Source of the DNA: Candidatus Babelota bacterium
GTDB lineage: Bacteria > Babelota > Babeliae > Babelales > Vermiphilaceae
Direction of reading: 5' to 3'
Assembly (NCBI GenBank): GCA_003963225.1
Contig: RXKB01000004.1
Span: 124,001 to 188,000, forward strand
DNA: 64,000 nt
Positions 12,412-25,661 of this stretch are shown one piece after another. Below the pieces are notes generated by a model. It searched no databases, was not told the DNA's origin, and saw only the letters and a list, made by a program, of their open reading frames with translations. The translations under genes were made by a program, and so were the position numbers. Position 1 is the stretch's first letter, and the number at the start of each line of letters is the position of its first letter.

Positions 12412-14124
12412 TTGAACAGCAATAAAAAGCTTGAAACACTCAGGCATTCGGCTGCTCATTTACTTGCGCATGCCATACAAGAACTGTATCCAGACACTTT
12501 ATTTACTATTGGGCCAGCAACTGAAGAAGGTTTTTTTTATGATGTACTCCCTTCAAAAAACTTTAAAGAAGACTGCTTGCCTTTACTTGAAAAAAAAATG
12601 CATGAAATCGCTTTGCGCAATCTGCCTTTAACCCATCAAAACATGGCTAAAGAAGATGCAAAACGTTTATTTAACCATAATAAATTTAAACTAGAACTTA
12701 TTGATGGTATTGAAGGCGATTTTGTGGGTATTGCAAGGCAAGGTGATTTTGTAGATTTGTGCAAAGGCGGCCACGTTGAAAACACTAATCAAATACAACA
12801 TGTAAAATTATTGCATATATCAGGGTCTTACTGGCGCGCAGACAAAAATGGTCAGCCTTTACAACGCATTTCTGGCACGGCATTTTGGACAGAAAAAGAG
12901 TTGCTGGAATATGTACAAAAAAAAGAAGATGCGTTAAAATATGATCACCGTCGAATTGGCAAAGCGTTAGATCTTTTTTCTTTTCAAGAAGAAGGACCAG
13001 GTTTTCCTTTTTATCATCCGAATGGAAAACTCATTTTAAATATCTTAACCGATCATTTAAAAAAACTTTTATTAAAGTATGGACATGTAGAAATTAGCAC
13101 CCCTGCCATGTTAAGCGACGAGCTGTGGCGTAGATCGGGCCATTACCAATTTTACAAAGACAACATGTATTTTTGCAGCATTGATGAAAAAGAGTACGCC
13201 GTCAAGCCTATGAACTGCCCTGGGGCAATTTTAGTATATAATGATCGCCCTCATTCTTATAAAGAACTGCCGTTAAGATATGCAGAGTTTGGACATGTAC
13301 ATCGGTATGAACTTTCTGGGGTCATGCATGGTCTTTTCCGAGCCCGAGCATTTACACAAGACGACGCTCATATTTTTTGTATGCCTGAACAGTTAAACAA
13401 AGAAATTGTAAGCCTTATTCAACTGCACCGTGAGCTAATCGATCCCTTCGGCTTTAAAACATCAGTCCGTGTTGCTACCAAACCAGCAAAATCTTTAGGA
13501 TCAGATCATTTATGGGAAATTGCAACTAACGCACTAATTGATGGGCTCAAGCAGGAACAGTACCCGTATGACATTGCACAAGGCGAAGGCGCTTTTTATG
13601 GCCCTAAAATTGAGTTTCATCTGTTAGATTCAATGGGTAGATCATGGCAATGTGGCACGATACAAGTCGATTTTTTTCAATCAGAAAACTTTGATCTTTC
13701 ATATATTTCAACAGAGGGCAAAAAAGAACGTCCTGTTATTATTCACAGGGCTTTATATGGCTCTATGGAACGTTTTTTTGGTATTTTATTGGAGCATTAT
13801 AAAGGGAAGCTGCCTTTCTGGTTGGCACCAGTACAAATTAAAATACTTTCCATTACTGACGAGCAAAAATCGTACGCTTACTCAATTGCACAGTATTTAA
13901 AATCATATAATATACGCGTAGCTGTTGATGAATCGTCTGATCAAATTTCAGGACAGATCAAAGCAGCATGCGCTCAAGGAATTCCGTGGGCACTTGTTCT
14001 TGGCAAAAAAGAAATGGCTCAAAATACCGTCACTCTTCGCTATGCTGATGGAAAACAAGAATTTAATCTTTCTCTTGAAAAATTAATACAAAAAGCTCAG
14101 CAAACTATTACCGACTTTTTGTAA
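12412..14124 (+). CDS. thrS: Threonyl-tRNA synthetase lacking the TGS domain
   Basis: Charges tRNA-Thr. The 570-residue enzyme starts directly at the editing domain: HSAAHLLAHA near residue 12 and DLCKGGHV near 116 hold the zinc/editing residues. The class II core follows with MNCPGAILVY, motif 2 EFGHVHRYELSGVMHGLFRAR, and motif 3 HRALYGSMERFFGILLEH; the anticodon-binding domain closes the chain. The usual N-terminal TGS domain (about 60 residues) is absent, and no frame upstream encodes it. The TTG start has AGAAGGA upstream. The 3' end overlaps the convergent nth gene by 17 bases. Confidence 0.95.
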   Translation: MNSNKKLETLRHSAAHLLAHAIQELYPDTLFTIGPATEEGFFYDVLPSKNFKEDCLPLLEKKMHEIALRNLPLTHQNMAKEDAKRLFNHNKFKLELIDGIEGDFVGIARQGDFVDLCKGGHVENTNQIQHVKLLHISGSYWRADKNGQPLQRISGTAFWTEKELLEYVQKKEDALKYDHRRIGKALDLFSFQEEGPGFPFYHPNGKLILNILTDHLKKLLLKYGHVEISTPAMLSDELWRRSGHYQFYKDNMYFCSIDEKEYAVKPMNCPGAILVYNDRPHSYKELPLRYAEFGHVHRYELSGVMHGLFRARAFTQDDAHIFCMPEQLNKEIVSLIQLHRELIDPFGFKTSVRVATKPAKSLGSDHLWEIATNALIDGLKQEQYPYDIAQGEGAFYGPKIEFHLLDSMGRSWQCGTIQVDFFQSENFDLSYISTEGKKERPVIIHRALYGSMERFFGILLEHYKGKLPFWLAPVQIKILSITDEQKSYAYSIAQYLKSYNIRVAVDESSDQISGQIKAACAQGIPWALVLGKKEMAQNTVTLRYADGKQEFNLSLEKLIQKAQQTITDFL

Positions 14125-14803
14125 CGCCAATTTTAGGGCAAAAAGTAGCAAGCGGACATTCTGAACATTTTGGACTTTGGGGGCGGCATATGTTTTGCCC
14201 CCACATAACAAGTAAACTATTGAGCTCAATCCAATGTTTTTTGGGTATAATTTTTTTTAGGGCTTCTTCAGTTTCTGCTGGATTTTTTGTTTGTACTAAC
14301 CCTAATCTATTGCTAATACGTTGGACGTGGGTATCAACACAAATTGCTGGGATATTGTAGGCATAACCAAGCACTAGGTTAGCTGTTTTACGGCCAACTC
14401 CTGGTAATGCCAAAAGCTGGCCGCTTTTTAGTACAACCGTTTGTTCGCACTGCTTTAGAAGAACAAAACTTATGTGTCTAATAGTGTACGCTTTTTTTCT
14501 ATAAAAGCCAACAGGGAAAATACATGCAGCAATTTTTTCTTCTGAAATTGCAACCATTTGTTGGGGATTTCGTGCAAGTTCAAATAATCTAATCGATGCA
14601 GCATAACTAATGGCATCTGTAGTTCTTAGGCTTAAAATACAGCTAATTAAAATAAGAAAAGGATCTTTGCCATATTTTTGTATAATAAGTTCGGCTGCAG
14701 GCCTTGGCATCGAAAAAGTTGCTTTTTGCAGAGTTGCAATAAGATGAGAAATAGTCATAATAGGTATATGGTGAAGTTTGTAAAAACTCCCCTTTTTTTG
14801 CAT
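14108..14803 (-). CDS. nth: Endonuclease III
   Basis: Removes oxidised pyrimidines from DNA and nicks the strand. The HhH-GPD core carries LPGVGRKTANLV with the catalytic Lys and VDTHVQR with the catalytic Asp. The C-terminus has the [4Fe-4S] ligands C-x6-C-x2-C-x5-C (CRPQSPKCSECPLATFC). Length is 231 residues from 14803; a second ATG at 14758 (MTISHLIATLQ) gives the normal family start and is equally possible, since neither has a strong ribosome binding site. A 40-codon gene lies just upstream and may be translated from the same message. Confidence 0.95.
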   Translation of the reverse strand: MQKKGSFYKLHHIPIMTISHLIATLQKATFSMPRPAAELIIQKYGKDPFLILISCILSLRTTDAISYAASIRLFELARNPQQMVAISEEKIAACIFPVGFYRKKAYTIRHISFVLLKQCEQTVVLKSGQLLALPGVGRKTANLVLGYAYNIPAICVDTHVQRISNRLGLVQTKNPAETEEALKKIIPKKHWIELNSLLVMWGQNICRPQSPKCSECPLATFCPKIGVTKSR

Positions 14804-15041: not shown

Positions 15042-17768
15042 ATGCAAGAACTCATTAATTTTTTATCTTATCTTTTTAATAATAACTACTTTGTTCTTGT
15101 AATGGACATTGTATCTTTTGCATTAAAAATGTGTATATTTATAAGCTTAAGTATACATACGTACATAAAAGCAAAAAAAAAATTGCCTTCTTTTTTTTTG
15201 TTAATTGCTATTTTTAGTGGCGCTTTAATAGATTTTGGTTGGATATGCACACTAAGCGCGCGGATTGGTTTTCCTCTGCTAGAATATCATTTTTATGTAT
15301 TTATTAACCGTCTAGGTTGGGCTTTTTTAGTATTACAATATCATGGCATGGTTCTTCTTTTAGAAACATTACTGACTAAAAATTATAAACTATTACTCCG
15401 CAGAAATATTTTTTTAATTATTTGTAGTAGTTTTTTTATACTTTTTTTTACCATTTTTCCAGTTGCTGCCTGGCATTTGGCTGCAAAACCAGACAGACCC
15501 CCAATTGAAGCACTAATGAAACACATATGCTCAATTTATTTATTGTTATTTTTAATTCCTATTAGCTTGTGGAATATTTTTTACCATTTAAAGTCAAGAA
15601 AAATACCCATTATTATTCAAAAGCAATGTTATACCTTATTATATACACTTATTGTACCCTATTTTTTAAGTGATTTTATTAACATGAATCCATTTAAAAA
15701 TAATTATTTTAATTTTGCAATTCAAAATCAAGCATTTACCGGCTTTTCTACGCTAATTTTAACGTATCTTTTGTATTTTTGCATGCAACGTATTTTAAAT
15801 ATACGATTTTTAAACTTAAAAAAATCAGTAAATTCGTTATTTATTGATATACAGTTTAACGAATATTTTAAAGAAGTTCTTGGGAACCTGAGCGAAGTAA
15901 AATATACGTACGAAATACCACAAATTGTACAAAATTTTTTACACAAAGCATTACATATCAATCAAAAAAAAGTAGACATTATTATAAAACCAAGCCCTGA
16001 CAATGAAGAAACAGATGAAACTGTATATGCAGACCCACAAAGTATTTACAATATTATTAAAAAATTAGAAAACAGTTTTTCTGATCAAAAAAATAATCCA
16101 AAGAATGATTTCTTTGGATTTCTCAAAAAAGAGCCTGTTTTAGTGTTTGATGATATTGATTTTGCAAATTTTTATGATGACGATCCTTTTTTAAATAATA
16201 TACTACACATGATGGGATCAATTAACTGTGCCATTTTAGTGCCAATTTTTCATAAAGAAGAACTACTAGCGTACATGGTCATTTATTTTCATGCCCGAAA
16301 AGAGCGGTTATATTCTCATAGCGACAAAGATGCGCTGGTCGTTTTTGCAAACTACGTTGGCAGTATCATGGCTAGTATTCAAAATAATCAGTTTGAACGC
16401 ATTATTGAACAAAATAGAATTCTTACTGAAAATCTTTATTTTAAAACGCATCAAATTAATTATTTAAAAGAAAGTATAAAGTCTTGTTTTGATCGATCAC
16501 GCGTTAAAACAATCTGTTTATTTTTATATAAAAATAAAGAGTTTATAGCAATAAATCAGGAAGCTCTGCAACTTTTTAATATCGATCTAAATCAACACGA
16601 AGGGCACCCATTAACAAATCAATGCAAACGACTGGTTACGCAAGCGCTTGCGTATAACACAACGCAAACTACGCTTATAAAATCAGATGATGGTGAGCCT
16701 GTGCTGATTGTGGCATTGCCTCATTTAGAACATAAAAGCGTTACCATTATGATCACGCACCCAGACATTGCCGATCTTATTGGCAAGCATCTATTAAATT
16801 TACCTTCGATGGATGACTGGGATTATATTTTATATTTACAAAACACCAAAACTGGGCAGCTCATTAACAACCTTCTTCCCGGCTGGTCAAAGCAAATGAT
16901 TGAATATAAAATAGATATTCTTAAAAATATTTTAAGCAAAAAAGCATTGTTTATACAATGCACATCTACAGACATTCCATTAGTGTTAGATTTATTACAT
17001 AAATCTACTGAACGTAAAGATCTTAGAATTCTTGATCCTGTAAAAGATATTGATTGCGAAACAGCACTTTTTGGTATTAACCCTTTATATGGGAAAATAG
17101 AAGAACCGCTACTAAAAAAACTTCACCAAGGTATTATTTTTATCAATAACGTGCATAAGCTAAGTACTGTCGCGCAAGAAAAACTAGGACTTTACATAGA
17201 TTATGGGCACTTTACTAAGTTTAAAAGTGATATGTTTATTAAATCAGACGTCCTTATTTTAATGTCAAGCACACTGCCATGCTCACAAAAAAATGATGCC
17301 TATGCTTACAATTTAAGTGAGTCTATGAAAACAAAACATTTGTATGTTCCTTCACCAGCTTTATTAAATAATCAAGATTATGAGGAATTAATCGATGGCT
17401 ACTGCACACAAGCATTGAACAACCAAACTATACAAAAAATATTTGCTATTTCTGATTATGAAAAAAGAAAACTCGTCATGGAAAGGCCTCTTTCATTGAC
17501 CCATCTAAAAGAAAAAATTGTCAACTTACTTACCAATAAAAATAAACATAGTAGTATTGAGCATAATATTTATTTAGACAATACTTTCTCATTAGCCGAT
17601 CACACACTCGCTGAAGCTGGCAAGCTTGGAAAAAATGCTTTAAAAAATCACCATATTGTATCATTTCTATGGCATCATTTTGAAAAAAACCAAAACAAAA
17701 TTGCTCTTTTTTTAGGAGTAAATCGTTCATCTGTAAATAGGCGAGTGAAAGAATTCAATTTAACATAG
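15042..17768 (+). CDS. Membrane sensor with GAF/PAS-like domains, degenerate sigma54-activator-like AAA+ region and Fis-type HTH
   Basis: A 908-residue protein. The first 250 residues hold about seven membrane spans. A GAF-like sensor region (about 270-430, with AILVPIFHKEELLAYMVIYF) and a PAS-like region (about 480-570) follow. Residues about 600-780 resemble the AAA+ domain of NtrC-type activators: ALFGINP where ELFG leads to GAFTGA, and QGIIFINNVHKLSTVAQEKL where GGTLFLDEI...QAKLL is usual. Walker A is absent, GAFTGA is lost and the Walker B acids are replaced. The C-terminus is a Fis-type helix-turn-helix (NKIALFLGVNRSSVNRRVKEF). Probably a membrane-bound transcription regulator that cannot use ATP; the ligand is unknown. 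xerC/D follows 13 bases later. Confidence 0.7.
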   Translation: MQELINFLSYLFNNNYFVLVMDIVSFALKMCIFISLSIHTYIKAKKKLPSFFLLIAIFSGALIDFGWICTLSARIGFPLLEYHFYVFINRLGWAFLVLQYHGMVLLLETLLTKNYKLLLRRNIFLIICSSFFILFFTIFPVAAWHLAAKPDRPPIEALMKHICSIYLLLFLIPISLWNIFYHLKSRKIPIIIQKQCYTLLYTLIVPYFLSDFINMNPFKNNYFNFAIQNQAFTGFSTLILTYLLYFCMQRILNIRFLNLKKSVNSLFIDIQFNEYFKEVLGNLSEVKYTYEIPQIVQNFLHKALHINQKKVDIIIKPSPDNEETDETVYADPQSIYNIIKKLENSFSDQKNNPKNDFFGFLKKEPVLVFDDIDFANFYDDDPFLNNILHMMGSINCAILVPIFHKEELLAYMVIYFHARKERLYSHSDKDALVVFANYVGSIMASIQNNQFERIIEQNRILTENLYFKTHQINYLKESIKSCFDRSRVKTICLFLYKNKEFIAINQEALQLFNIDLNQHEGHPLTNQCKRLVTQALAYNTTQTTLIKSDDGEPVLIVALPHLEHKSVTIMITHPDIADLIGKHLLNLPSMDDWDYILYLQNTKTGQLINNLLPGWSKQMIEYKIDILKNILSKKALFIQCTSTDIPLVLDLLHKSTERKDLRILDPVKDIDCETALFGINPLYGKIEEPLLKKLHQGIIFINNVHKLSTVAQEKLGLYIDYGHFTKFKSDMFIKSDVLILMSSTLPCSQKNDAYAYNLSESMKTKHLYVPSPALLNNQDYEELIDGYCTQALNNQTIQKIFAISDYEKRKLVMERPLSLTHLKEKIVNLLTNKNKHSSIEHNIYLDNTFSLADHTLAEAGKLGKNALKNHHIVSFLWHHFEKNQNKIALFLGVNRSSVNRRVKEFNLT

Positions 17769-17781
17769 AAAAGGCATTACA

Positions 17782-18708
17782 TTGCTTACTATTGAAAAAA
17801 TGCTTGAGTACGCGGAAGAATTTTTAGATTATCTTCGTATTAAACAAAATGTATCATCACACACATACCGCGCATACAAATGTGACATTAAACAGTTTTT
17901 TACTTTTTGGAAAAAAACGCATCATAAAGATAATGTCACCATGAAGAAAATAATTGAAAGATACTTAGTCGCATTATTTTATAAAAAGATAGATAACAAA
18001 ACAATTGCACGGAAATTCTCTTGTTTTTCATCATTTGAAAAATTTCTTAAGCAAAAATCTATTATATTGCGTCTTGATTTAAAAAGGCCCAAAATAACCC
18101 GTAAACTTCCTGTATATCTAACAATTGACGAAATCTTTTTACTGCTCGATAATATAAGTACCGATCAACTACAAACAGATTTTCCTTATCGAGATAAAGC
18201 AATTTTTGAACTACTTTACGCTACAGGAATACGCTGCTCTGAACTTACGCAAATTAGAATAGCTGATCTTACAGCACCTACAAGAAGCATTCGTATCTTT
18301 GGCAAAGGAAAAAAAGAAAGAATAGTACTTTATGGCTCAAAAGCAGAAAAGAGCATGCAAGAGTACCTTACCCATGAACGGAAAGCAGTTATTTCTGACA
18401 AAGAACACTTTTTTTTAACCAAAACAGGAAGCCCTCTTGACACAACACATGTTAGAAAAATTATAGGGATGTTTAGGAAACTGCTTCCATTGCAAAGATC
18501 ATTAACTCCTCATAAAATACGTCACTCATTTGCAACCCACCTTTTACAAAAAGGAATGGATTTAAGAATGATACAAGAGCTTTTAGGCCACAAAACATTA
18601 GCAAGTACAGAAATATATACTCATGTTTCTGTTGAGCAACTAAAAAAAATATGCGCAACAATTCACCCGCTTAATAAAACAGATACGAATAAAAAAGAAG
18701 ATTTATAA
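17782..18708 (+). CDS. Tyrosine recombinase XerC/XerD
   Basis: Resolves chromosome dimers at dif. The 308-residue enzyme has the N-terminal SAM-like core-binding domain and the catalytic set: Arg in TGIRCSEL near residue 150, H-x-x-R in TPHKIRHSFATHLL near 244, His in LLGHKTLASTEIYTH and the nucleophile Tyr in the same segment. This size and sequence fit a housekeeping Xer protein rather than a phage integrase; C or D cannot be decided by eye. The TTG at 17782 has AAAAGG upstream; an ATG six codons later is an alternative. It is one base from the next gene, so it is in an operon with the PBP. Confidence 0.92.
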   Translation: MLTIEKMLEYAEEFLDYLRIKQNVSSHTYRAYKCDIKQFFTFWKKTHHKDNVTMKKIIERYLVALFYKKIDNKTIARKFSCFSSFEKFLKQKSIILRLDLKRPKITRKLPVYLTIDEIFLLLDNISTDQLQTDFPYRDKAIFELLYATGIRCSELTQIRIADLTAPTRSIRIFGKGKKERIVLYGSKAEKSMQEYLTHERKAVISDKEHFFLTKTGSPLDTTHVRKIIGMFRKLLPLQRSLTPHKIRHSFATHLLQKGMDLRMIQELLGHKTLASTEIYTHVSVEQLKKICATIHPLNKTDTNKKEDL

Positions 18709-18709
18709 T

Positions 18710-20434
18710 ATGAATAATCCAACAAACAGTATAAATAAAAAAATAATATTACTTTTTCATTTTGTTATATGCTGTTTTTTGATTATTATTGGTCGACTTA
18801 TTCATTTACAAATTATTAATGAATATACGATGAGTAAACGTGCGAAACAAAATTTTTTGCGTTTACAAAAAATCAAAAGCTATCGAGGAGAAATAGTAGA
18901 TTGCAAAAAACGTTTAATAGCCACAAATAAAGTTATATACCATCTTTATTGGCAAGGTAGTGGAAACAAAACATTACATACTCAACAAATTGAAGATATT
19001 AAAAAAGTCAGCACCTTACTTGGTAAAGAATATTTCGATGAAAAAAAAATGCATCGATTGCACCGAGCGGAAGCATTACAAAAAAAAGACATTTTGTATC
19101 CAAATTTAACGCACAAAGAACTTTGTATTATTGCAGAGTCTTTTCCTATTCACAAAAATATGAGTATCCAAACATCACTTGAACGCCATTATCCTTACCA
19201 AACATACGCCAGTCACCTTATAGGCTATATTAGCAACAATCAACAAGCCTGCGTAGGCAAAATGGGCATTGAAAAACTGTGCGAAAATAGTTTACGGGGA
19301 ACAGATGGCACTTATTTGTATGCAATTAACTCTTTTGGGAAACATATTGATCAACTACTTATTAAACAACCTTCTATTGGTTCTTGTATATTTACAACTC
19401 TTGATATGGAATTACAAGAAATTGCAGAAACTGTATTTCCTTTAGATATAATTGGCTCATTAATTGTAATGAACCCAGAAAATGGAGCAATTCGAGCTCT
19501 TGTTTCTCGACCCACATTTGATCCAGGTTTGTTTTTATCAAGAATAAGCTACAGCACATGGGACGATCTACAAGAAAATAATACCTTTCTTAACAGAGCT
19601 TTTATGCCATTTCCTCCAGGCTCTATTTTTAAATTAATTACCACAAGTGCTGCATTAGAACAAGGCATTATTAATGAAAATGACACTTGGTACTGCAAAG
19701 GATATACTACATTTGGAAAACGAAAGTACTATTGCGCACGTAAACGTGGCCATGGTCGATTATCCCTCAAACAAGCAGTTGCACAATCATGCAACACTTT
19801 ATTTTTTGAAATTGGAAAAAAATTAGATATTGACATATTGGCAGATTATGCCCGCCGTTTTGGCCTCGGCCAATCCACTGGCATAAGCTTGCAAGAACAG
19901 TACGGATTGGTTCCTACACGCGAATGGAAAAAAACAGTTAAAGGACAACAGTGGTGGCCAGGTGAAACCCTTTCGGCTGCCATTGGACAAACATTTTTAC
20001 TCGCATCCCCTTTGCAAATAGCTTGTTTAATTGGCAGCATTTTTACTCGTAAATTAATAACACCACGCATACTAGAAAACGAATCTATTATGAGTACCGA
20101 CTTGCCAATTAAAGAAGAAACATTGCATTTTTTAAAAAAATCTATGAAATCTGTAGTGCGCCGTGGTACAGGCAAAGGTATTCCCACCATTCAAGATCTT
20201 GAAATTTTTGCAAAAACAAGCACGGCTCAAATATCTTCTCTTGAAAAAACTGCTCAAAATAAAGCATTATTAGAGCATGGCTGGTTTGCAGCCTATTTTA
20301 CTTTTAAAGGAAACAATCCTTTAGTGTTAGTACTTTTGGTTGAAAAAGCAGGCAGCTCACGCGTACCCACCACCATTGCAAAACAGTTTTTTTTGAAATA
20401 CAAAAAATGGATGACTGAACAAACTATTGTTTAA
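18710..20434 (+). CDS. mrdA: Peptidoglycan transpeptidase, PBP2 (MrdA) family
   Basis: Cross-links peptidoglycan during elongation. One N-terminal membrane anchor (residues 10-32) is followed by the dimerisation domain (RGEIVDCKKRLIATN; YPYQTYASHLIGYI) and the transpeptidase domain with S-x-x-K in FPPGSIFK, S-x-N in SCNTLF, and AKTSTAQ where the usual third motif is K-T/S-G. The Gly-to-Ser change in that motif is unusual. The length of 574 residues is normal. It starts one base after the xer gene. The MreC gene of the same machinery is elsewhere in the window. Confidence 0.9.
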   Translation: MNNPTNSINKKIILLFHFVICCFLIIIGRLIHLQIINEYTMSKRAKQNFLRLQKIKSYRGEIVDCKKRLIATNKVIYHLYWQGSGNKTLHTQQIEDIKKVSTLLGKEYFDEKKMHRLHRAEALQKKDILYPNLTHKELCIIAESFPIHKNMSIQTSLERHYPYQTYASHLIGYISNNQQACVGKMGIEKLCENSLRGTDGTYLYAINSFGKHIDQLLIKQPSIGSCIFTTLDMELQEIAETVFPLDIIGSLIVMNPENGAIRALVSRPTFDPGLFLSRISYSTWDDLQENNTFLNRAFMPFPPGSIFKLITTSAALEQGIINENDTWYCKGYTTFGKRKYYCARKRGHGRLSLKQAVAQSCNTLFFEIGKKLDIDILADYARRFGLGQSTGISLQEQYGLVPTREWKKTVKGQQWWPGETLSAAIGQTFLLASPLQIACLIGSIFTRKLITPRILENESIMSTDLPIKEETLHFLKKSMKSVVRRGTGKGIPTIQDLEIFAKTSTAQISSLEKTAQNKALLEHGWFAAYFTFKGNNPLVLVLLVEKAGSSRVPTTIAKQFFLKYKKWMTEQTIV

Positions 20435-23518: not shown

Positions 23519-24116
23519 ATTAAAAAACCTTTTTCCAAAATTAATAAAGAACAGTAAAAGTATACCATCATCAATAAAAAACTAAATAACTATTGGAAAA
23601 AAGCTATAATCAATTATATGGTTATTTAAAACTCTTTCTAAAACAATAGTATATATATGTGTATGAGTTTTATGATGTAAAATGTATAACGCTTAGATAA
23701 AATCAAACCACAAATAAAATGAAGATAGCGGCACAAAAAATAAGCATTACCAAAAAACAAGCTCAAATCTATAAATAAAACGATAAAATGGCAATTCAAC
23801 CAGCCTAAACGCCTAAATAACAGCATCTCAATCTTGTTGATTTAACGCAATTAAACGTACAAAAGCCTGAAGACTGTACTGGTCATAGTAAAACAGAGCA
23901 AATTGTTTAAAAACGGCTCCTGGATACCTTTTCTTTAAAAAATACTTTTTATCTATTAAAAAGTCGACTAGAAGGGCATTTTGATACATTTTTAATTAAT
24001 GCATATTCAAAATATATAATTACAAATAGTAATTATATTGACAAATTTTTTATTTAAAATATAATTATAAATATAAGTCAATAAGTCTATTATTATATTC
24101 ATAAATGGAGATTTTT
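23519..24116. other. Gene-free stretch of about 600 bases between gyrA and the AAA+ gene
   Basis: Very AT-rich. The gyrA-proximal part must hold its promoter, but I see no convincing boxes. The middle contains a coding-like remnant listed separately. Short frames on the minus strand (for example 23638-23826) lack a start signal and are not credible genes. Confidence 0.6.
23818..24056 (+). pseudogene. Possible gene remnant
   Basis: The frame from about 23818 reads LNLVDLTQLNVQKPEDCTGH, a stop at about 23908, then RLLDTFSLKNTFYLLKSRLEGHFDTFLINAYS. The composition is like a helical protein of this genome, yet no start is found and stops occur upstream. It may be the tail of a decayed exported protein gene. 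Weak evidence. Confidence 0.3.
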
Positions 24117-25661
24117 ATGAAAAACATACTTTTAGCTACTGTATTGCTCTTTTCTACAATTGACATTAAATCAAGCGATCGCTCTTTATGGGCATCATTC
24201 ATGTCATATGGTGTTTTCACAGCTGCTGCATTAAAATTAGGTTACGCTTATCTGCCATCAATGTCCAAAGTGAACCAAATCGTCTCAACAGGTTTTCATG
24301 CAACATCAATTTTAAATCAAGTAAAGCCAAATTGGTTTCCAGGCAGACAACAAGGTCTTAAAAACCCTGAAGAAACAAGGGTAAATCCTGGCAATCATAT
24401 AGAATTTGATCCCATTTTTTTTACACAATGGAACGAAATTAATGACATAATTCAATCAATAACAATAATACAGCCAAATACACGTGAACAAAACATCCTG
24501 AGTGCTGATTGCGCAAGAAACGTCTTACAAATGAATAAAGATGCAACGACTAATTTAATAGAAAAAAATGGGGCTGGCACAGTAGAGATGTTAAATCACT
24601 CTTTTATGCAAAAATTAATCCAATATTTCGTAGGTACACCTAAAAAAGCTGTATCATCAGACACTAAACAATATAAGCCTAAGTTAGAACATGGAAAATA
24701 CGCATATCTGCTACAAGGACCTCCCGGATGTGGCAAAACTAGCTTGCCTTTATACCTAGCTCAAAAGCTTAACTGCCCTTTGTACCATATCAACGCGGCT
24801 TCATTATCAACAGGATATTCTGGCTCAACAGTTGCAAATTTTAAAAATATTATCGAAGCAGCATATAAAGCAGCTCGTCAAGTGAACAATAAAACTGCTA
24901 TTGTATTTATAGACGACATTGATACTATGTTCCAAGCATCGTCTGAAGAAATATCTTTATTGCAAGGATATATACTAGATATGGTAGAAAAAATGCAAGA
25001 TAAATCGCAATATATACAAAACAAAGAAAAAGCAGAAGTTTTATTATTTTGTACAGCAAACTATAATCAAAGCAAGTGGCTAGAGCAAGGCGCTTTACAC
25101 AGAACAGGTAGAGCACAATTAATAGACTACAAAACAATGTATATTTCCAGTAATCAAAGAAAAGAGCTGCTCATACAAAAAATTAATGCCGCCAAAAAAT
25201 CAGATTTGTTAACTCATATTACTGAAACTCAGATTTCTGGTGTCTCTCAAAAACTTCAAGACATATTATCTATAAATATCATATGTATAGGAAAAAAGTC
25301 ACTATGCAACTTATTAAATATAAAAGCCAGCGATATTAACCAACATTATATACAAACCTATGGCTCTTTTGAGGAGGCTTTGAAAAAAATCTTCAATAAC
25401 AAATACTCGCATCTTAAAGTTTTGTCAATAAAGAAAAATGATTCACAAGATCAATCAGAAGAAATACAAAACGTAACAGTTTATAAATTAACATTTGATA
25501 AAAAACAATTTTTGAAAGCAAGTGATTTTTTATCGCTAAATGAGTTAGTAATATTACTTTACTCCTTATCAAACAAGAATAATGATACGTTCAAAACATA
25601 CGGATTGTTATTTGAAAATCTTAACAAAAAACAAATAGAACCAACAGTTCCAGAAATATAA
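24117..25661 (+). CDS. AAA+ ATPase with an N-terminal signal peptide
   Basis: A 514-residue protein starting at the ATG after GGAG. The first 20 residues (MKNILLATVLLFSTIDIKSS) are a signal peptide or anchor, and a second mildly hydrophobic segment follows. The AAA+ module has Walker A GPPGCGKT near residue 201, Walker B IVFIDDID near 261, a sensor-1-like FCTANYN and an Arg-containing segment HRTGRAQ. The C-terminal 170 residues include helical lid-like sequence and an unknown part. AAA+ proteins need ATP, which the periplasm lacks, so it may be anchored facing the cytoplasm or exported into a host. Function unknown. Confidence 0.75.
   Translation: MKNILLATVLLFSTIDIKSSDRSLWASFMSYGVFTAAALKLGYAYLPSMSKVNQIVSTGFHATSILNQVKPNWFPGRQQGLKNPEETRVNPGNHIEFDPIFFTQWNEINDIIQSITIIQPNTREQNILSADCARNVLQMNKDATTNLIEKNGAGTVEMLNHSFMQKLIQYFVGTPKKAVSSDTKQYKPKLEHGKYAYLLQGPPGCGKTSLPLYLAQKLNCPLYHINAASLSTGYSGSTVANFKNIIEAAYKAARQVNNKTAIVFIDDIDTMFQASSEEISLLQGYILDMVEKMQDKSQYIQNKEKAEVLLFCTANYNQSKWLEQGALHRTGRAQLIDYKTMYISSNQRKELLIQKINAAKKSDLLTHITETQISGVSQKLQDILSINIICIGKKSLCNLLNIKASDINQHYIQTYGSFEEALKKIFNNKYSHLKVLSIKKNDSQDQSEEIQNVTVYKLTFDKKQFLKASDFLSLNELVILLYSLSNKNNDTFKTYGLLFENLNKKQIEPTVPEI

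Follow-up and report, generated by a model that had tools for sequence, protein, structure and literature searches.

In activators of sigma54, ATP hydrolysis drives GAFTGA loops against the sigma factor. Among the bEBP derivatives that act with sigma70 is TyrR, which lacks GAFTGA and is a soluble protein, as are VpsR and the NtrC proteins of R. capsulatus and Caulobacter. Membrane-bound one-component regulators of the ToxR/CadC type combine a sensor, an anchor in the membrane and a DNA-binding domain within a single chain. In the part of the source available to us, R. capsulatus NtrC, Caulobacter NtrC and VpsR are given as GAFTGA-less bEBPs acting at sigma70 promoters; the two NtrC proteins are described there as dependent on ATP binding or on ATP-site residues, and VpsR is reported to need no ATP (PMC10274813).

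The window analysed here, a single stretch of 64,000 nucleotides, contains a gene (15042..17768, + strand) which can be set beside each of these systems. Based upon its open reading frame, a structure model and alignment, it specifies a 908 amino acid protein (P0001) with the layout 7TM-GAF-coil-PAS-pseudoAAA+-Fis HTH. The AAA+ fold and a predicted C-terminal Fis-type helix-turn-helix (HTH) are common to P0001 and the NtrC-family activators NtrC1, NtrC4 and PspF, but Walker A, GAFTGA, Walker B, the arginine fingers and sensor II are gone, a predicted membrane sensor is present in the chain, and no sigma54 was found in the phylum. With the sigma70-acting bEBP derivatives P0001 and its relatives, hereafter the dead-AAA+ family, share the loss of GAFTGA, whereas the family is also without a P-loop and is joined to 7TM-GAF-PAS. 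Brucella NtrX, of the NtrY-NtrX system, is the top Foldseek match, and a GAFTGA-less NtrX-like regulator occurs in the same phylum; P0001, however, has neither receiver nor kinase, and scores 17.9 bits with the NCBIfam NtrX equivalog against a cut-off of 600. Unlike the ToxR/CadC type, it has seven predicted spans, GAF, PAS and AAA+ domains in between, and a Fis-type rather than a winged HTH.

Gene and domain organization

Residues 1-262 (15042..15827, + strand, as are all the parts that follow) are modelled as a seven-helix membrane sensor with the N-terminus outside and the C-terminus inside; this is the least conserved part, and hydropathy alone gives four of the seven predicted regions. 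It is followed by a GAF domain (residues 263-448; 15828..16385), a coiled-coil linker or long helix (residues 449-487; 16386..16502) and a PAS domain (residues 488-575; 16503..16766). In the model of residues 263-590 the long helix spans 164-222, corresponding to 426-484 of the protein. The NtrC-type AAA+ domain without ATP-site residues occupies residues 588-837 (16803..17552); the fold was predicted for 604-837 using the structure model and Foldseek, and the Sigma54_activat match of P0001 falls below the Pfam cut-off. The predicted Fis-type HTH (GVNRSSVNRR; residues 870-907; 17649..17762), the most conserved part, was located with the model, the alignment and a Fis profile. The Fis model match itself (875-907) is weak (E 0.036) and its helices are present in the structure model; among family members, HTH_8 and HTH_50 are each matched in one of 29 at a Pfam E-value of 0.01. 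Pfam revealed no HATPase domain among matches of P0001 up to E 10 and no receiver, the N-terminus consisting of 7TM-GAF-PAS instead. Transmembrane anchor and DNA-binding domain, both by prediction, are therefore found together in this chain.

An earlier note on this DNA, made from the letters alone, had described a sensor-AAA+-HTH architecture, and the predicted seven membrane helices, GAF, coil, PAS, NtrC-type AAA+ and Fis-type HTH agree with it. Residues 590-780, which it had taken for an AAA+ core, are modelled as NtrC-type AAA+.

Loss of the ATP site and GAFTGA

The survey of active-site residues covered 91 near-full-length copies, defined as open frames of at least 750 amino acids scoring above 400 bits, with one row for each set sharing the same middle part; contig-end fragments and split copies (e.g. 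those of G002, G012 and G054) were left out. When these were aligned to the canonical regulator L111, which possesses GESGTGKE and GAFTGA, the P-loop Lys was found in none of the 91, and an Asp is invariant (91/91) at the column of the Gly preceding it. Since the P-loop is shortened in the family, the residue register at this place is that of the alignment, which puts the Walker A place of P0001 at residues 639-646 (16956..16979, + strand), with the family-invariant Asp644 and with Ile645 at the Lys position. GAFTGA is likewise absent from all 91 copies. The Asp and Glu of Walker B never occur jointly (Asp alone in two copies, Glu alone in one), and Arg is present at the first arginine finger in none, at the second in one and at sensor II in four. 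In P0001 the Lys is replaced by Ile, the Asp-Glu pair by Asn702-Asn703 (17145..17150, + strand, from the alignment), the arginine fingers by Ala and Ser, and the sensor II Arg by Thr; its sensor I stretch is degenerate, the consensus being lost.

An intact Walker A elsewhere in the P0001 chain would have refuted the earlier note, and there is none. A protein search in which 7,993 candidates were scored gave 42 database relatives, none with a P-loop or GAFTGA pattern; one of them, P0005, is a partial sequence without that region. A loose P-loop pattern matches L008 and L101 at frame residues 534 and 556, outside the AAA+ part, and these matches are taken as due to chance. The alignments comprised P0001 with 28 of the 42 database homologues (A1), with 21 rows (A2), with 56 of the 87 listed rows (A4), and with 31 of 45 listed out of 90 (A5).

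Distribution of the family

Of the 101 genomes examined from the phylum Dependentiae/Babeliales, 67 contain a member of the dead-AAA+ family and 34 show no copy; in the window's own taxonomic family all 29 genomes contain one. One of the 67, G012, is counted on a 237 amino acid match at a contig end. The relatives surveyed share the architecture, so that what had been called a rare layout is common within the phylum. The window's own genome (G000) contains one copy only, and many genomes contain two or more. A pattern-based scan of one genome per species, covering 84,980 species, resulted in 53 loci, the titles of which name Dependentiae, Babeliales or Babeliaceae, TM6 or plain bacterium, with three exceptions. 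Two of these (L131, L162) appear to be identical to G050:C4 and G059:C12 of the phylum; the third (L166) is a 3.2 kb contig titled Flavobacteriales.

Members of the phylum are intracellular bacteria living mostly inside protists. At 2.43 Mb the window's own genome exceeds in size every other listed phylum genome (0.5-1.8 Mb). For Babela massiliensis, the part of the genome report available to us mentions only five predicted transcription regulators (PMC4378268); in such cells, the dead-AAA+ protein would therefore be one of few. Our literature search located nothing joining Dependentiae and sigma-54, and no title or abstract start describing the dead-AAA+ family. In the databases some members are annotated with names like 'sigma 54-interacting transcriptional regulator', which is misleading because no sigma54 was found in these organisms.

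Sigma factors and two-component proteins

The DNA-binding and core-binding domains of sigma54 (PF04552, PF04963) were matched in none of the 101 genomes, the window's own and the 68 of good quality included, and each control matches in 4 of 14. In the own genome there are four sigma70-family matches. The earlier note had supposed a membrane-tethered regulator unable to remodel the sigma54 holoenzyme by ATP; with tethering by prediction, this is supported by the AAA+ fold, the missing Walker A and the lack of a sigma54 domain (rpoN) in the same genome.

The own genome has two HATPase matches, which we interpret as GyrB and MutL, and it thus shows no histidine kinase. Receiver domains are missing from the own genome and from 64 of the 67 genomes with the dead-AAA+ family. 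They occur in 20 of the 101: the 16 genomes with the NtrX-like lineage described below, G079, and G014, G026 and G036. Among the 16, the receiver is below the cut-off in G089 and on other proteins in G090. At most two HATPase matches were counted in 62 of the 67 genomes with the dead-AAA+ family, in 3 of the 16 with the second lineage, and in all 18 with neither. G014, G026 and G036, which have both the dead-AAA+ family and receivers, show more than two HATPase matches each. L111 (G036:C6), a receiver-PAS-PAS-AAA+ regulator with both motifs intact, lies on a contig of 5.9 kb; G036 has no sigma54 match, and this contig is perhaps a contaminant.

A GAFTGA-less second lineage with the arrangement receiver-AAA+-Fis was discovered in 16 genomes of three other families, with frames of 421-485 amino acids in 14 genomes and fragments in G089 and G090. 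Across the 101 genomes it was never found together with the dead-AAA+ family (16 versus 67 genomes, no overlap). NCBIfam placed NtrX first for three of its proteins, with 209-230 bits against the cut-off of 600. Walker A is retained in ten of ten, GAFTGA is absent from ten of ten, and Lys or Arg stands at the Walker B Asp in ten of ten. Similarly, among 120 listed database relatives of this lineage, 113 contain a P-loop and none contains GAFTGA. Its profile also matches the AAA+ part of the dead-AAA+ family (best 3.3e-15). In nine second-lineage loci compared, by our reading an mlaF-like ABC gene adjoins in eight and a moxR-like gene in seven; loci of this lineage are numbered L112-L122 and L180-L194. 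Away from these loci, 13 of the 16 genomes contain an extra kinase region, read as NtrY-like, and NCBIfam scans of three such regions gave LIC_11548 and AtoS as best matches, far under the cut-offs.

We considered an origin of the membrane sensor by fusion of a kinase with its regulator, and rejected it for want of support. If such a fusion were real, kinases from the other families in the phylum would be expected to share the 7TM-GAF half; the 13 kinase regions have other spans, and none matched the sensor profile (best E 0.45). Among 7,991 scored candidates sharing exact words, in a search whose length limit drops most full-length members, nothing outside the family proved homologous to the membrane half, and under the same restrictions the sensor profile found only two proteins, both from the family. 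With no outside homologue as a guide, the sensing role of this half is one that we infer.

Conservation and selection

Mean pairwise identity among the 91 copies is highest in the HTH region (62%), followed by the AAA+ core (588-740; 50%), the coil (49%), PAS (41%), the AAA+ lid part (741-850; 38%), GAF (36%) and the membrane part (26%). In the recognition helix, 80 of the 91 have VNRSSV without any change. A quick tree places P0001 on one of its long branches (length 1.89), among the more divergent family members. Eight close pairs were compared: seven show differences in AAA+ and HTH, and in these domains their non-synonymous divergence is far lower than the synonymous, many synonymous values being near saturation, and the eighth (in G035) is identical in both domains. 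From the strong conservation and low non-synonymous divergence of the dead core, the domain appears to be retained for its shape.

Two of the 24 same-genome pairs compared exhibit a sharp step in identity. In G035 (L050/L060) there is no DNA difference from residue 263 onwards, but the membrane halves are only 71-76% identical; in G023 (L017/L051) the output half is 92-96% and the membrane half 73-75% identical, again at the DNA level. The other 22 pairs show no step, and in most of them the membrane half is less alike than the HTH. The simplest reading of the G023 and G035 pairs would be gene conversion of the output half, leaving the sensors free to diverge. Conversion in both looks to stop where the membrane part ends. 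The step in G035 is possibly an assembly artefact due to repeat collapse.

Proposed function

The best reading of the sequences is that the dead-AAA+ protein descends from sigma54 activators. Since ATP site, GAFTGA loop and sigma54 are all missing, the sequence evidence, as far as it goes, excludes an ATP-driven sigma54 mode. Sigma70 promoters are where GAFTGA-less relatives act, some of them needing ATP-site residues, and VpsR is reported to do so without ATP; we therefore take the protein to be a membrane-bound regulator of sigma70 promoters. On balance we consider it probable that it is a one-component regulator which controls genes directly through its HTH, at sigma70-type RNA polymerase and without ATP. 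The membrane part would sense a signal, which GAF, coil and PAS might relay onward. The dead AAA+ domain could serve as an oligomer-forming scaffold that determines how the HTHs are spaced or how active they are, and the predicted Fis-type end would bind DNA from the membrane at promoters that are presumably sigma70-type, resulting in either activation or repression.

A broader reading, on which our opinion is evenly divided, is that a phylum without sigma54 and, in most families, without two-component signalling uses a seven-span receptor fused to a DNA-binding output by way of a passive ATPase scaffold. Within that reading, doubled copies with like output halves and diverged membrane sensors would let several signals feed one regulon. 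The family offers a phylum-wide natural experiment on the role of a sigma54 activator after loss of its sigma factor and of its ATP chemistry, where fold and HTH stay under strong selection despite both losses.

Perhaps the protein is mainly a repressor, with membrane-bound HTHs sitting on promoters until a signal releases them. This overlaps with our preferred explanation, requires neither ATP nor polymerase contact and fits the sequence data; activation fits them equally, and as a separate account we regard it as doubtful. Less probable still is a role in tethering the chromosome to the membrane or organising it, in which the HTH binds many sites and the membrane half anchors the nucleoid. 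The predicted anchoring, the highly conserved HTH and the gene order, with a Xer recombinase and a cell-wall transpeptidase following both in the window and at other loci, would agree with such a role, but the GAF and PAS folds and the fast-diverging membrane half suit sensing better, and two same-genome pairs differ almost solely in the membrane half.

That the gene is a decaying relic of sigma54 loss seems to us very improbable. The long branch of P0001 and its lost sensor I consensus are in line with decay, as are short pieces with an internal stop in G001 and G053, split pieces in G002, and the 34 genomes without a copy. The 91 copies provide no evidence against it, because they were chosen as open frames. 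However, the phylum genome search gave no near-full-length match with an internal stop, the frames are also open in relatives 93, 88 and 80% identical to P0001, and the gene is retained in 67 of the 101 genomes, with invariant residues and low non-synonymous divergence in the dead core. Mixed AAA+ rings exist in general, and many genomes have at least two copies, but we give hardly any credence to a motor in which an active partner supplies the ATP-site residues, since all 91 copies are dead, the own genome has a single copy and no sigma54 was found, and the own genome's three Sigma54_activat matches are taken to be ComM-, ClpB/C- and MoxR-like proteins.

Neighbouring genes and upstream region

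Upstream and divergent lies a gene for an HhH-GPD DNA repair protein (nth-like; 14108..14803, - strand), whose cluster recurs at this position in 52 or more of the 91 loci, the flanks being short. A Xer-type tyrosine recombinase ORF (17782..18708, + strand) begins 13 bases past the stop codon, and 31 or more of the 91 loci, with the same short flanks, have its cluster downstream. It is followed by a gene for a penicillin-binding protein (transpeptidase; 18710..20434, + strand), found in 10 of the 91 short-flanked loci and likely to be in the same operon. The synteny with xer and PBP genes gives no pointer to a regulon. A separate AAA protein (PF00004) of 518 amino acids is encoded at window positions 24105-25658, and no link to the 15042-17768 gene was seen.

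In the 320 bases upstream of the 91 copies, examined for inverted repeats and for k-mers, no palindrome stands out as an operator, A/T-run repeats aside. At half-site lengths of 5, 6 and 7 bases, the only inverted repeats to equal or slightly exceed the shuffled maxima are A/T runs; with 5-base half-sites these occur in 8 and 7 sequences, compared with shuffled maxima of up to 7. A -10 box (AGTATAAT) was found upstream in 25 of the 91 copies versus 4.4 expected, counting either strand. In many copies it is located about 33 bases before the start, and the 64 alignable sequences have no -35 consensus. A GATC-containing stretch adjoins the start codon and is read as an extended ribosome-binding site.
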